DNA of 17,422 nucleotides, from NCBI GenBank assembly GCA_030602145.1, contig JAUWAH010000003.1, positions 1 to 17,422 of the forward strand, written 5' to 3'. Position 1 is the first letter of the stretch, and each line of letters begins with the position of its first letter. The notes under the pieces are model-generated. The model ran no database searches and was not told the origin of the DNA. It was given only the letters and a program-made list of their open reading frames with translations. A program made the position numbers and the translations under genes. Shown here one piece after another: positions 3,300 through 13,572 of the stretch. This DNA is from Desulfobulbus sp. (GTDB lineage Bacteria > Desulfobacterota > Desulfobulbia > Desulfobulbales > Desulfobulbaceae).

Positions 3300-4328
3300 T
3301 CAGACTGCAAACCGCTCAATATACCACTGCGCGGCCTTGTCCAGCCCATCCCGGACCGAATATTCCGGCCGGTAGCCCAGCCGCCGGCCGGCTTTGGAGA
3401 TGTCGGCCAGGGAGTGGCGGACATCGCCGGCGCGGAAGTCGCGGTGGATGGGTTCGGCCCGAACCGCGGCCGGCACACGCACCGCCACCCGCTCCCGAAT
3501 GAGGCGGTAGAGTTCGTTGAGGCTGGTGCGCTCGCCGAAGGCGACGTTGTAGACCTGATCGGCCGCCTCGTCGCCGGCGGTGGCAGCGAGGATGTTGGCC
3601 TGGACGCAGTTGTCGATGAAGCAGAAGTCGCGGCTGGTTTCGCCGTCACCGTTGATGTAGACCGGCTCCCCCTTGAGCAGGCCGGCACACCAGTTGGGGA
3701 TGACGGCGGCATAGGCGCCGGCCGGGTCCTGGCGTCGGCCGAAGATGTTGAAGTAGCGCAGGCCGATGGTGGCGAATCCGTAGGTGCGGGCAAAAACCGA
3801 TGCATACAGTTCGTTGACCAGTTTGGTCACCGCATACGGCGACAGCGGGTTGCCGATCCTCTCCTCCACCTTGGGCAGGTCGGGATGATCCCCATAGGTC
3901 GAACTGGAGGCGGCGTAAACCATTCTGCGCACCCCGGCGTCCCGTGCCGCCACCAGCATGTTGACAAAGCCGCTGATGTTGGTTTCGTTGGTGGTGAGGG
4001 GGTCCTCGATGGAACGGGGCACCGAGCCGAGCGCCGCCTGGTGGAGCACGTAGTCCACCCCGGCGCAGGCCGCCCGACAGGTGGCGAGGTCGCGGATATC
4101 GCCGCGGATGAATCGGAAACGCTGCCAGGCCGTGGCGGCCACTGTCCGTTCCACCTCGTCCAGGTTGTGCTGATGACCGGTGGCGAAGTTGTCGAGGCCG
4201 ACCACATACTGGCCCAGGTCGAGCAGGGTTTCCAGGAGGTTGGAGCCGATGAAGCCGGCAACGCCGGTCACCAGCCAGGTGGCCGGCTGCTGCCGGAGCA
4301 GGGCCATTCGTTCCTCATAGGGGATCAT
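3300..4328 (-). CDS. wbpP: UDP-N-acetylhexosamine 4-epimerase (WbpP/TviC type)
   Basis: An extended short-chain dehydrogenase/reductase of 342 residues that should interconvert UDP-GlcNAc and UDP-GalNAc (or their uronic acids) with bound NAD+, supplying sugars for surface polysaccharide. Seen: N-terminal NAD-binding [13 protein letters not shown] (21-33), [15 protein letters not shown] (45-59), [15 protein letters not shown] (96-110), the [13 protein letters not shown] block, and the catalytic YAVTK (Y165, K169). The extra ~18 residues before the Rossmann motif and the GSVPRS and [12 protein letters not shown] blocks resemble WbpP of Pseudomonas aeruginosa and TviC of the Vi antigen pathway more than GalE. 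The ATG at 4328 has only a weak purine stretch upstream. It stands alone without a polysaccharide cluster, so the exact substrate is inferred. Confidence 0.9.
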
Positions 4329-4462
4329 TTGCCTGTTTTCCTGTGGGTTGATTTAGTGTAGGCTTGCGGTGTCCCGCCGGTGGATCCGGTTGGATAATAG
4401 CCGTGACCGCGTTCAGCGTCAATGGCGACAACAGTCTGCATCCAAACCCTTGGCACCCTTTC

Positions 4463-5596
4463 ATGCCGCCCATCCGCAAGATCATTCACGTCGACATGGA
4501 TGCCTTCTTCGCCTCGGTCGAGCAGCGGGACCGCCCCGAGTTACAGGGACGGCCGGTGATCGTCGGCGGATCGCCCGATGGCCGGGGTGTGGTGGCGGCC
4601 TGCTCCTACGAGGCCCGTGCCTTCGGCATCCGTTCGGCCATGCCCAGTGGACGCGCCCACCAACTCTGCCCGCAGGCTGTGTTCCTCAAACCCAGGATGG
4701 CCCGCTACCAGGAGGTGTCGCGGCTCATCATGGACATTTTCCGCAGGTACACGCCCTTGGTGGAGCCGCTCTCGGTGGACGAGGCCTTCCTCGATGTCAC
4801 CGACAACCTGGCGGGCGAACCATCGGCCACCCGGCTCGCCGAGGCCATCCGCGCCGACATCCGTGCCGCCACCGGCCTCACCGCCTCGGCCGGCGTCTCC
4901 TACAACAAGTTCCTGGCCAAGATCGCCTCCGGGCATCAAAAACCCGACGGCCTCACCGTCATCCCCCCGGAACGGGCCGCCTCCTTTCTCGCTGTCCTGC
5001 CGATCGGTGCCTTCTACGGCGTCGGCCGGATGACCGAGCGGACCATGCACGCCCACTCCATCCGCACCGGCGCCGACCTGCTCCGCTGTTCCCGTCAGCA
5101 CCTGGTGGAGTTGTTCGGCAAGGCAGGGCTCTTCTTCCACGACATGGCCCGGGGGATCGATCCCCGCCCGCTGCAGCCGGTTCGGGTACGTAAGTCCATC
5201 GGCGCAGAAACGACCCTGCTCGCCGACATCCTCGATGATGCCCGGGTGCGCGCAGTGCTCGCCGACCTGGTTTTGCGGGTGTCCCGGCTGCTCACCGACA
5301 AAAAAACCGGCGGCCGCACCCTGACCCTGAAGGTCCGCTACAGCGACTTCACCACCATTACCCGCTCCTGCACCACCGGAGAAGGCTTCTTCGACGCCAC
5401 CGACATCGAGTCCAGCCTGCCCCGATTGCTGGCCGCCACCGAGGCCGGACGCCGCAGGATCCGGCTCTTGGGGATCACCGTGGCCAACCTGTACCCGGAG
5501 AGGGAATCCCGAAAATTGCGGATGCGGCAGCTTGTCCTGCCGTTTGCGCCACCCCGATCCAAGACGACTCCGAGTTGGACATCGTCGCCAAAGTGA
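4463..5596 (+). CDS. dinB: DNA polymerase IV (Y-family translesion polymerase)
   Basis: Error-prone translesion polymerase of 377 residues. The start MPPIRKIIHVDMDAFFASVE aligns with the N-terminus of Escherichia coli Pol IV, so the ATG at 4463 was chosen over the frame's upstream GTG (4403) and TTG (4364); no good Shine-Dalgarno precedes it. Catalytic carboxylates are D11 and D106/E107 (LSVDEAFLDVT), with the steric-gate position in DAFF (F16). Also visible: SYEARAFGIRSAMPSGRA in the fingers, SAGVSYNKFLAKIAS in the palm, and IGAFYGVGRMTE in the thumb region. A little-finger domain follows, and QLVLPF close to the C-terminus fits a sliding-clamp-binding peptide. The gene is divergent from the epimerase; I found no convincing LexA box in the gap, so SOS control cannot be claimed. 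Confidence 0.97.
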   Translation: MPPIRKIIHVDMDAFFASVEQRDRPELQGRPVIVGGSPDGRGVVAACSYEARAFGIRSAMPSGRAHQLCPQAVFLKPRMARYQEVSRLIMDIFRRYTPLVEPLSVDEAFLDVTDNLAGEPSATRLAEAIRADIRAATGLTASAGVSYNKFLAKIASGHQKPDGLTVIPPERAASFLAVLPIGAFYGVGRMTERTMHAHSIRTGADLLRCSRQHLVELFGKAGLFFHDMARGIDPRPLQPVRVRKSIGAETTLLADILDDARVRAVLADLVLRVSRLLTDKKTGGRTLTLKVRYSDFTTITRSCTTGEGFFDATDIESSLPRLLAATEAGRRRIRLLGITVANLYPERESRKLRMRQLVLPFAPPRSKTTPSWTSSPK

Positions 5597-9734: not shown

Positions 9735-10826
9735 ATGACCTCTTCAGCACCGACACCCCAGGCGCAAGCCACCACTGCCTCCAGCGAGGCGGGCAACTGG
9801 TTCCCGGAAAACCTGGCACAGATCACCACCGCCTTGGCATCGCTCGTCGCCCGGCCACAGCCGGTTGCCCCGGTGGCGGTGTTCGACTTCGACAACACCT
9901 GCATCTTCCGCGATATCGGCCAAGCGGTGTTTCGCTATCAGCTCCAGCACCTCCACTATCGCCTCATTCCCGAACAGTTGGCCGCCATTCTGCCCCGGGG
10001 CGAGGGTCAACTGGCGGGCCGGCCGCTGACCGCCGTCACCACGGCCCTGGTCGATGCCTACCGTGTCCTGTTTCCGCTTATACTGACGGGCCAAGCCGCC
10101 CAGGCCCGGCGGTTGCCGCAGGCCCGGCTCTTTGCCGCCCTGCTCCTCTGGTTCACAGACCAGGCGCGCAGGGACGAACGATTGGGCCCGCGCTATGTAC
10201 TGCCGTTCATGGGAAAACTCCTGGCCGGACTGACCACCGCCGAACTGCGCTTCCTGGCCGTCGAGGTGGTCGAGGCGGCCCGTACCGAGCCGCTGAGGGA
10301 GGAATGGTTGCGGGTCGAGGCACCTGAGCCGATCGGCGCCATCGAGGCGAGCTATCCCCTCGGCCTTCATCCCTATCCGGAGATGCTGGCCCTGATGCAT
10401 CGGCTGGCCGATCTGGGCATCGAGCGGTACGTGATTTCGGCGAGCGCCGAATGGCTGGTGGAAGGAGCAGCGAGAGCACTGGGTTTTCCGGTGCAACCGG
10501 AGTGCATTTTCGGCATCCGGGTCGGTTTGGACGTCGGCGAAGTGCTCACCATCAGCGATCCCCCCGACTACCCGGTCACCTACCGGGAGGGCAAGGCAGC
10601 CGTCATCACCCGCTGGATCGGCGGTCGAACGATGCTTGTGGCCGGCGACGCCGACACCGACTACGAGATGCTCACCCTCCCCGAGGTCGACATCCGGCTG
10701 CTGCTCAACCGGAACCAGCACGGCCTGATCAGCACCCTCTACGACGACCCGCGCATCCTCCTCCAGGGGCTGGACCTGACCACCGGCCGGTTCCGACCCT
10801 CACGGGAATCGATCGGGGGTGCTTAG
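9735..10826 (+). CDS. HAD-superfamily hydrolase (phosphoserine-phosphatase-like)
   Basis: A predicted phosphatase of 363 residues. HAD motif I is FDFDNT, with nucleophile D51 and acid/base D53. Motif II serine is in VISASAEWLVE (S235 region), the motif III lysine is K287 in EGKAAVI, and motif IV acidic residues are D305 and D309 in GDADTDYEML. A large helical cap (about residues 60-200) lies between motifs I and II, as in C1-cap HAD enzymes related to phosphoserine phosphatase. The protein is longer than SerB-type enzymes because of the cap and an N-terminal stretch of about 45 residues. The substrate cannot be told from sequence. The ATG at 9735 has a weak ribosome site (AGG). No neighbour points to a pathway. 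Confidence 0.85.
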   Translation: MTSSAPTPQAQATTASSEAGNWFPENLAQITTALASLVARPQPVAPVAVFDFDNTCIFRDIGQAVFRYQLQHLHYRLIPEQLAAILPRGEGQLAGRPLTAVTTALVDAYRVLFPLILTGQAAQARRLPQARLFAALLLWFTDQARRDERLGPRYVLPFMGKLLAGLTTAELRFLAVEVVEAARTEPLREEWLRVEAPEPIGAIEASYPLGLHPYPEMLALMHRLADLGIERYVISASAEWLVEGAARALGFPVQPECIFGIRVGLDVGEVLTISDPPDYPVTYREGKAAVITRWIGGRTMLVAGDADTDYEMLTLPEVDIRLLLNRNQHGLISTLYDDPRILLQGLDLTTGRFRPSRESIGGA

Positions 10827-10935: not shown

Positions 10936-12000
10936 CTATCTTCTCAACGTCCGCGCAAAATCGAGCATCCGCTGGATCGGGATGCGCGCCCTGGCCGCCA
11001 GGTCCGGGGCCACATGGATCTCGCCCTCGCCGGTTTCAAGGACGCGGGCCAATTTCTCCAGGGTATTCATCTCCATCCAGGGGCAGCGGGCGCAACTCTC
11101 GCAGGTGGCGCCTTCGCCGGCGGTGGGGGCGCCTAACAGGATCTTGTCCGGGGCCAACTGGTGCATCTTGTTGAAGATGCCGGCATCGGTGGCGACGATG
11201 AACTCCCGGTTGGGCAGGGTCCGGACCGCTTCGATCAGGGCAGTGGTTGACCCCACCACATCCGCCAGGGCCACCACCTCGGCCGGCGATTCAGGGTGGA
11301 CCAGGATTGCCGCCTCGGGATGCAGGGCGCGCAGCTTGACCAGCCCCTCGGCCTTGAACTCCTCGTGCACCACGCAGGAGCCGGGCCAAAGGATCATCTC
11401 CACGCCGGTCAGCCGCTGGACATAGCGACCGAGGTGCTGATCTGGTCCCCAAAGAATTTTTTCACCCCGCTCGGCCAGATGGCGAACCACCGGCAGGGCG
11501 ATGCCCGAGGTGACCACCCAGTGGGAACGGGCCTTGACCTCGGCGCTAGTGTTGGCGTAGACCACCACGGTATGGTCGGGATGGCGGTCGCAAAACTCGG
11601 TGAACAGATCGATGGGACAGCCCTCGTCCAACGAGCAGGTGGCGCCGAGGTCGGGCATGAGCACCCGTTTTTCGTTGTTGAGGATTTTGGAAGTTTCCCC
11701 CATGAATCGCACCCCGGCCACCACCAGGGTTTGGGCCGGATGGGCGGCGGCGAACCGGGCCATCTCCAGGCTATCGGCAACGCAGCCGCCGGTGGCCTCG
11801 GCCAGGTCCTGAAGATCGGCGTCGGTGTAATAGTGGGCCACCAGCACCGCGTTCTGTTCGCGCAGCATGCTGCTGATTCGCTCCTTCAACGCCTCCTTTT
11901 CCCGGGGTGCCAACTCCAGGCGGATGGGATGCGGCGGAACCGTGATCCGCGGCAGGCGGACATTGGCGAGGTTTTCCTGTCCTTCAGTGCTCATGGCCAT
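10936..12000 (-). CDS. nadA: Quinolinate synthase
   Basis: Condenses iminoaspartate with dihydroxyacetone phosphate to quinolinate in de novo NAD synthesis; cytoplasmic, oxygen-sensitive [4Fe-4S] enzyme. From the ATG at 12000 the protein has 354 residues. Conserved blocks: [72 protein letters not shown] and [19 protein letters not shown]. Predicted cluster ligands are C122 (TCSLDEGC), C209 (GSCVVHEEF) and C306 (CARCPWM), matching the spacing of C113/C200/C297 in the E. coli enzyme. In-frame ATGs at 11994 and 12054 are alternatives. The latter has AGGGAG 9 nt upstream but would put a terminator-like hairpin inside the coding region and add 18 non-conserved residues. No nadB or nadC is in the window. 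Confidence 0.97.
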
Positions 12001-12022
12001 ACTCTGCTGTCTCGATTGCGAT

Positions 12023-12044
12023 AAAAAAACCGGGCGACGCCCGG
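12023..12044 (-). terminator. Intrinsic terminator-like hairpin in the nadA leader (possible attenuator)
   Basis: On the minus strand CCGGGC and GCCCGG (12044-12039 and 12035-12030) form a perfect GC-only 6-bp stem with a 3-base loop, followed at once by T7 (12029-12023). It ends 22 nt before the nadA ATG at 12000 and reads in the same direction as nadA. No minus-strand gene precedes it, since the next gene to the right is on the plus strand, so it is not an ordinary end-of-gene terminator. A transcriptional attenuator controlling nadA is the simplest reading. Confidence 0.7.
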
Positions 12045-12157
12045 CCGAATTCATGGAACAAGGCTCCCTACTACCGCAAAACCACGGTCAAGACAACCAT
12101 TTTCCGCCGCAGGCCGATAACCGTCGCATCCCATCGAAAACACGACAGGAAAATAGA

Positions 12158-12246: not shown

Positions 12247-13572
12247 ATGCACGTTTATCCTGCCGAACTCGTCTCGCTCATCACCCAGCGATGGCAGGAG
12301 ACCGCCGTTTCGGAGGATGGCGCCGAACCGGCCGAAGCCGGTCATCTGCCCGGCAAAACCGCCTTGGAGCACCTGATTTCCACCTGCTACCAGGTCAGCA
12401 TGATGCGCGAGGAGGATCGGCCGGTGACCCTGCGCCTCGTCCTGGCACCGTCCATCCTCTTCCCGCCCGACCAGGGACCGCCTAAGGGTTTCCTCCGCCT
12501 GCTCTTCGCCGCGCCACGCCCCTTCAACGAATACGAACTGCGCCGTCTGTCGCCGGCGGTGGATTTCGAGCGCTCCCTGATCGGCATCGAACCCCATCCG
12601 GACAAAGGGTTCCAGATCTGGGGCATCGTCAATTCGGGCATCCGCTGGCTGCAGGAGGAACGGGGCGGCAACAAGAAAACCAGGCAGTTGCCCGAGGTGT
12701 TTGTCGTTTATGTCACCGGGCCGGGCATGCTCACCATCTGCCGGGGCTTCAAGATCATCGCCACCCTAAACGGCGGCAGACTGCTCGACGCCACCGCCAA
12801 CGCCTTTCAGTCCAAGTGGATGAACAAGCTGTTCACCGAGGAGCGCAACATCCTGCTGCAACTGCACGAGCGCTTCCGGGCCAGCGTCCTCTATCCGGTG
12901 GCCAAGATCCAGGAGGAATTCATCGAAAACCTTCAGTTCCAACTGCTCAAACGGGTGATTAGCGTCACCCGCATGTCCCGCCACGGCGGCACCTTTCTTA
13001 TCTTTCCCGGCGACAACCCGCCCGAACTGGAAGCCGAAAACCCCTACATCCTGCTCAAATACCGCTTCCGCCAGGACGAGGCCATCCAACGACAGCAGAA
13101 CCTGATGGTGCGGACGATCCGCCTGGCCACCACCGTGCTGGGCGATATCAAGGACCCGGACCGGATCGTCACCTGGAGGGATTACGTCAACCTCCGCCAT
13201 GAATCCGCGGTCTACGACCTGGAGGAGGCTCTCTACGAGCATGCCCAGTTCATCGCCACCCTGGCCTCGGTGGATGGGGCGGTGGTGACCAGCAGCCGGG
13301 GGCCGATCGGCTTCGGCGGCATGATCGTCGGCTCGCTGGACAAGCTCACCGAGGTGGCCATCGCCAGCGACGTCGAGGGCAAGATCGTCAGCCTGACCAA
13401 GATCGAGGGCTACGGCTCCCGCCACCGCTCGGTCTACCATCTCTGCAATGCCCTCCACCAGGTGATGGCCATCGTCGTTTCCCAGGACGGCAACATCCAG
13501 TTGGCCAAATGGCGCAACGGCATCGTCACCTGCTGGGATCTGACCACCCAGATGTTCATCGGCGACGCCTGA
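12247..13572 (+). CDS. Putative diadenylate cyclase with N-terminal sensor region (DACNV-like)
   Basis: 441 residues. The C-terminal third reads as a DAC (DisA_N) domain, which makes c-di-AMP from two ATP: SVDGAVVTSSRGPIGFGGMI holds the DGA motif (343-345), and GYGSRHRSVYHLCNAL holds the RHR motif (392-394). MAIVVSQDGNIQLAKWRNG then gives the closing beta-strand pair. DGA and RHR bind nucleotide and metal in known DAC enzymes, so activity is plausible. Residues 1 to ~310 have no membrane segment and no familiar catalytic motif; MSRHGGTFLIFPGD (243-256) recalls the HGGT element of DACNV sensor domains found before DAC domains. The first ~240 residues probably sense a ligand. The start at 12247 lacks a good Shine-Dalgarno. 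It is divergent from nadA and converges on the MFS gene with a 24-nt gap. The domain assignment is by motif, so moderate certainty. Confidence 0.78.
   Translation: MHVYPAELVSLITQRWQETAVSEDGAEPAEAGHLPGKTALEHLISTCYQVSMMREEDRPVTLRLVLAPSILFPPDQGPPKGFLRLLFAAPRPFNEYELRRLSPAVDFERSLIGIEPHPDKGFQIWGIVNSGIRWLQEERGGNKKTRQLPEVFVVYVTGPGMLTICRGFKIIATLNGGRLLDATANAFQSKWMNKLFTEERNILLQLHERFRASVLYPVAKIQEEFIENLQFQLLKRVISVTRMSRHGGTFLIFPGDNPPELEAENPYILLKYRFRQDEAIQRQQNLMVRTIRLATTVLGDIKDPDRIVTWRDYVNLRHESAVYDLEEALYEHAQFIATLASVDGAVVTSSRGPIGFGGMIVGSLDKLTEVAIASDVEGKIVSLTKIEGYGSRHRSVYHLCNALHQVMAIVVSQDGNIQLAKWRNGIVTCWDLTTQMFIGDA

Follow-up and report, generated by a model that had tools for sequence, protein, structure and literature searches.

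A DACNV-DAC protein of Desulfobulbus as a predicted soluble diadenylate cyclase with a putative pseudo-DAC sensor half

The DACNV-DAC protein among diadenylate cyclases

The closest described relatives of the protein reported here, which is encoded at positions 12247..13572 of a 17,422-nucleotide stretch of a Desulfobulbus sp. genome (contig JAUWAH010000003.1; hereafter the window), are the diadenylate cyclase (DAC) proteins DisA and CdaA (DacA) and the proteins carrying the Pfam domain PF21751, 'Probable sensor domain DACNV'. Like DisA, the Desulfobulbus protein is soluble and has the DAC fold and motifs, but DisA contains a single DAC domain at its N-terminus, followed by elements that are missing here. 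In agreement with a preliminary description of this DNA, which had held that the protein lacks a DNA-binding domain, a Pfam scan at E 0.1 returned no match to the DisA linker or to HHH, using a library that finds both in the DisA of another genome (L111). CdaA shares the DAC motifs DGA and RH, and a CdaA-type gene is also present in the same genome. Unlike CdaA, however, the protein has no CdaA_N match by Pfam and, as also described previously, no membrane segment (maximum 19-residue Kyte-Doolittle mean, 1.22); moreover, its DAC domain is C-terminal and contains a helical insertion between the first strand and DGA. A DACND-DACNH-DAC protein from the same genome (L002) likewise places N-terminal 'probable sensor' domains ahead of a DAC domain and has HGCTIVI at the first strand, but its sensors belong to other families and it carries RYN where the DACNV-DAC protein keeps RHR.

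The DACNV-DAC protein is a member of the PF21751 group: the DACNV match exceeds the curated cut-off and is followed by a C-terminal DAC domain, and other members, such as Despr_0707 of Desulfobulbus propionicus (82% identical), have equal length and architecture. The architecture and the name are thus already known from public databases, whose PF21751 records name only a sensor domain; here we interpret that region as a pseudo-DAC fold. We consider the best explanation to be a soluble accessory diadenylate cyclase built from two tandem DAC folds, the N-terminal one acting as a pseudo-DAC sensor (probability roughly 0.6). The features to which the argument refers are as follows.

12247..13572, + strand: DACNV-DAC protein, open reading frame (ORF) with ATG start, 441 aa, coordinates including the stop codon
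12247..12795, + strand: N-terminal half, residues 1-183, proposed pseudo-DAC sensor
12340..12630, + strand: Pfam DACNV (PF21751), residues 32-128, 100.9 bits, cut-off 27
12616..12669, + strand: conserved sensor stretch, residues 124-141, from conservation and the order of elements in predicted models
12796..13563, + strand: catalytic DAC domain (predicted), residues 184-439
12982..13002, + strand: HGGTFLI, residues 246-252, DAC-domain strand at the place of GALI
13273..13287, + strand: DGAVV, residues 343-347, DGAhh motif, with D, G and A conserved
13414..13431, + strand: GSRHRS, residues 390-395, GxRHRxA motif, with G, R and H conserved
13477..13488, + strand: VSQD, residues 411-414, counterpart of (V/I)SEE, with S412 and D414 conserved

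A protein search retrieved 319 homologues, including a 'putative sensor domain DACNV-containing protein [Desulfobulbus sp.]'; details were taken from the best 120 of them, and the MHVYP start is common to close homologues. No solved relative was found by sequence (two chance rows only, E 0.26 and 0.32), and an NCBIfam scan gave no match at E 0.001. For the DACNV group of c-di-AMP (cyclic di-AMP) synthases our searches turned up no experimental structure and no paper, and the sister domain names likewise led to no relevant paper. DACNV and the sister names reportedly come from 'All DACs in a row' (Galperin, J Bacteriol 2023). Within the genus, 18 of 23 genomes have the family, counting the own genome, as do 21/55 of the whole set of relatives and 17 of 297 genomes sampled from the phylum (15 over the cut-off). 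It was also located in 149 stretches from genomes of named species; 79 of these were kept as loci for comparison, and among their titles are Desulfobulbus, Geomonas, Nitrospirae, Rubrobacter, Candidatus Binatia, Obscuribacterales, Hydrogenedentota and Verrucomicrobia. The distribution of the family is patchy.

The C-terminal half as a predicted catalytic DAC domain

Matching of the predicted model to DAC structures places a DAC fold at residues ~184-439, and the best fold matches of both halves of the protein include DisA. Translation of the ORF confirmed DGA at 343-345, RHR at 392-394 and HGGT at 246-249, as first described; DGAhh is given as a DAC motif in PMC7288161. D343, G344, A345, G390, R392, H393, S412 and D414 are identical in all 79 homologous loci, so the match to the catalytic motifs is not a matter of chance, and the DAC-type domain proposed in the preliminary description is supported by fold and conservation alike. 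The complete DGA and RHR pair is present in 74/79 loci; counted by protein, with the query among them, 113 of 121 have it. Within the query motif, GSRHRSV, the last position is V, while 45/79 loci have A. In VSQD the serine of (V/I)SEE is kept and Glu-Glu is replaced by Gln-Asp, as in nearly the whole family, with D414 taking the place of the metal-binding Glu.

Of the two domains that had been named beforehand, the profile search recovered DACNV well above its cut-off and DAC below it: the Pfam DAC match (residues 383-421) reaches 18.1 bits against a cut-off of 27, a limit of score rather than a biological feature, and PF02457 is among the precomputed domains of some relatives. This shortfall would fit an inactive pseudo-enzyme, in which each half would do no more than bind nucleotide or c-di-AMP, making the protein a receptor for c-di-AMP or ATP. 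The same could be said of the change of the metal ligand from E to D, of the missing third Arg of RHR in 5/79 loci, and of the RYN of the sister DACND-DACNH-DAC protein, which means that degenerate DACs occur in the same genome. However, the third Arg varies in canonical DACs too (the CdaA-type protein of this genome has RHH), and D343, G390, R392, H393, S412 and D414 are kept in 80/80 rows from several phyla, as expected from selection for catalysis. We therefore regard a pseudo-enzyme as improbable, and the DACNV-DAC protein, a predicted cytoplasmic enzyme, very probably makes c-di-AMP.

An active cyclase with another product, for example a mixed or other cyclic dinucleotide, is more improbable still. 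The base-contacting position (Leu31 of GALI) does vary (L 36, I 22, F 20 and V 2 of 80), but it is hydrophobic in every row; in addition, a c-di-AMP riboswitch is present in the genome, and 3'-5' c-di-AMP is given as the main DAC product in PMC7288161.

In the proposed mechanism, the C-terminal DAC domain would hold ATP through D343, G390-S391-R392-H393 and S412, and metal through D414. Two catalytic DAC domains brought face to face would then convert two ATP into c-di-AMP and two pyrophosphates. Such an orientation of two DAC domains is stated to be required in PMC7288161, and the partners would most likely be two catalytic halves.

HGGT had been proposed as an element of the sensor, and this assignment was rejected. 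In the model a strand occupies residues 248-253, inside the stretch matched to DAC structures. HGGT belongs to this strand region, which lies in the front part of the DAC domain and reads HCGALIV, IGTLFVV or HGCTIVI in other DACs: HGGTFLIFPGD here corresponds to HCGALIVFPGK in this genome's CdaA-type protein, to IGTLFVVGD in other DACs and to HGCTIVIDL in the DACND-DACNH-DAC protein. The equivalence of HGGT and GALI is a visual reading guided by the fold match, since only residues ~339-423 fall within the profile alignment. Helices within 275-339 sit between the HGGT strand and DGA in the predicted model, which may explain why the HGGT region looked like a separate domain.

The N-terminal half as a putative pseudo-DAC

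The preliminary description had assigned the first ~310 residues to a large sensor resembling no recognised enzyme. A sensor region is indeed present, in the form of DACNV, but the part outside the C-terminal DAC fold comprises ~183 residues, of which 32-128 are Pfam DACNV, and the predicted fold is DAC-like across this whole half, with the DAC topology. Residues W125, G126, S130, G131, R133, W134, G140 and G141 are each found in at least 95% of 80 rows, and the conserved stretch that contains them (124-141) occupies the place of the RHR helix in a DAC, judged from the order of elements in the predicted models. DGA or RHR triplets occur in the N-terminal half in only 12/80 rows and at scattered places, which amounts to loss of the catalytic motifs. 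In these models the N-terminal half resembles a duplicate of the DAC fold that has lost catalysis, and it may act as the sensor of the enzyme.

At the level of sequence, homology of the N-terminal half to DACs was not seen beyond chance. Its hhalign scores, 17.8 against 27 canonical DACs and 15.7 against the C-terminal half, lay within the column-shuffled controls (maxima of 40 controls, 22.3 and 20.5), as did those obtained after adding remote members (16.8 and 16.8; maxima of 60 controls, 17.6 and 22.4). These scores are not significant and give no proof of an internal duplication. The best alignments pair N-terminal residues 149-180 with the strand pair after the DAC RHR helix, and residues 144-166 with residues 399-421; they agree with the register of the fold, an agreement that by itself proves nothing. 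DACNV could instead be an independent alpha/beta ligand-binding domain attached to an active diadenylate cyclase, its likeness to DAC reflecting a common arrangement only. We consider this the most serious competitor and nonetheless unlikely.

If the pseudo-DAC interpretation holds, residues 1-183, Pfam DACNV among them, would be a DAC fold devoid of DGA and RHR whose own conserved residues form the sensor, and it would gate the pairing of the catalytic halves in response to a ligand, probably a small molecule. A more specific proposal, which we put forward tentatively and regard as rather doubtful, is that DACNV is an internally duplicated diadenylate cyclase that has lost catalysis while retaining a conserved pocket in which another nucleotide-like ligand binds, and that its face-to-face pairing with the catalytic half blocks or licenses the productive dimer.

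The c-di-AMP circuit and gene neighbourhood

The own genome (2.8 Mb, 72% complete) contains its CdaA-type gene in two pieces at contig ends: L001 encodes a hydrophobic N-terminus and a DAC domain up to GTRHHAAMGLAE, and L003 encodes the end of a DAC domain and a long C-terminal part. We infer that the two are one gene; relatives have a CdaA_N-DAC-YbbR architecture. A c-di-AMP riboswitch (RF00379, 75.2 bits) lies on contig C21 (L092:1452-1581), with a Kup-like ORF right behind it (L092:1563-3080; E 3.1e-162, 541 bits, below the model cut-off, the ORF exceeding the fetched stretch). The target of the product, earlier described as open, thus has a candidate: the riboswitch ahead of the Kup-like transporter gene would connect the signal to potassium. 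As to a phosphodiesterase, no PgpH-type 7TM match was found in this 72% complete genome, and one DHH protein is NrnA-like but scores below the NCBIfam cut-off (121.6 against 350 bits).

Among 44 genomes with the family (43 of 49, leaving out G065 and G067-G071, plus the own genome), 19 have the c-di-AMP riboswitch when searched at E 0.01, with 18 exceeding the cut-off, and 30, the own genome not among them, have the PgpH 7TM domain (29 over the cut-off). Since the riboswitch is absent from 25/44, this output is not general. An additional DAC (E 9.5e-19 or better) accompanies the weakly scoring DACNV-DAC in 48 of 49 genomes, and the DACNV enzyme therefore looks like an accessory input to an existing c-di-AMP system. 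The exception at E 0.1 is G082 (locus L028), where a riboswitch (L103:1406-1546) precedes an amino-acid-permease-family transporter (L103:1664-3472), which we take to be KimA-like. Because 2 of 27 genomes of the family of G082 have no DAC at all, assembly gaps can explain this sole-DAC case and we do not take it as proof. The DACNV-DAC protein is most likely an accessory, ligand-controlled c-di-AMP synthase, as predicted here, and its product would supplement the c-di-AMP made by the housekeeping CdaA-type enzyme in the same cell.

The DACND-DACNH-DAC gene lies at L002:430-1932 on contig C318, and its DAC domain retains DGA. RYN in place of RHR also occurs in L115 and L117, and RFN in L116 (three other genomes), so these proteins are possibly an inactive DAC class. 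The L002 protein has a weak NCBIfam 'DS2_3 anti-phage protein' match over its DAC domain, far below the cut-off (67 against 630 bits).

The DACNV-DAC gene has one divergent neighbour, which is given for context only.

10936..12054, - strand: nadA, separated by a gap of 192 bp

Of the 19 loci L005-L023, 18 have nadA; the exception is L018, where the available stretch begins 131 bases before the gene. HAD and MFS genes occur in 14/79 and 16/79 loci, all within L005-L023, and all three neighbours are confined to loci of Desulfobulbus and Desulfogranum type. The window itself encodes a HAD-like protein at 9735-10826 (29.2 bits to Pfam HAD, cut-off 27), whose gene is retained in the vicinity of nadA and the DACNV-DAC gene in those 14 loci. 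No partner gene is conserved across phyla in the 79 loci, and the neighbourhood therefore gives no pointer to the ligand. DNA polymerase IV is encoded no more than 8 kb from the DACNV-DAC gene in 13/79 loci (L013, L055 and 11 of Geomonas type, the latter with mutS also close by) and at 4364-5596 of the window, and mutS is nearby in 13/79 loci (Geomonas-type). Two long + strand ORFs, at 904-2070 (overlapping a minus-strand ORF of 363 aa) and 3414-4361, gave no Pfam match at E 0.1. The window gave no Rfam match or tRNA. For defence genes PADLOC gave no match. These negatives cover the families contained in the lists searched.

These observations assemble parts of a c-di-AMP circuit in a Desulfobulbus-type bacterium: a CdaA-type enzyme, a DACNV-DAC enzyme, a riboswitch and a Kup-like transporter. 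Section 2.3 of PMC7288161 states that, as of 2020, no other domain had been detected with a structure similar to that of DAC; relative to that statement, and barring later papers, a DAC-like sensor would, if true, be new. Should the sensor be a catalytically inactive copy of the enzyme, the question of regulation becomes concrete: does it bind ATP, c-di-AMP or another ligand, and does it form pairs with the active half?
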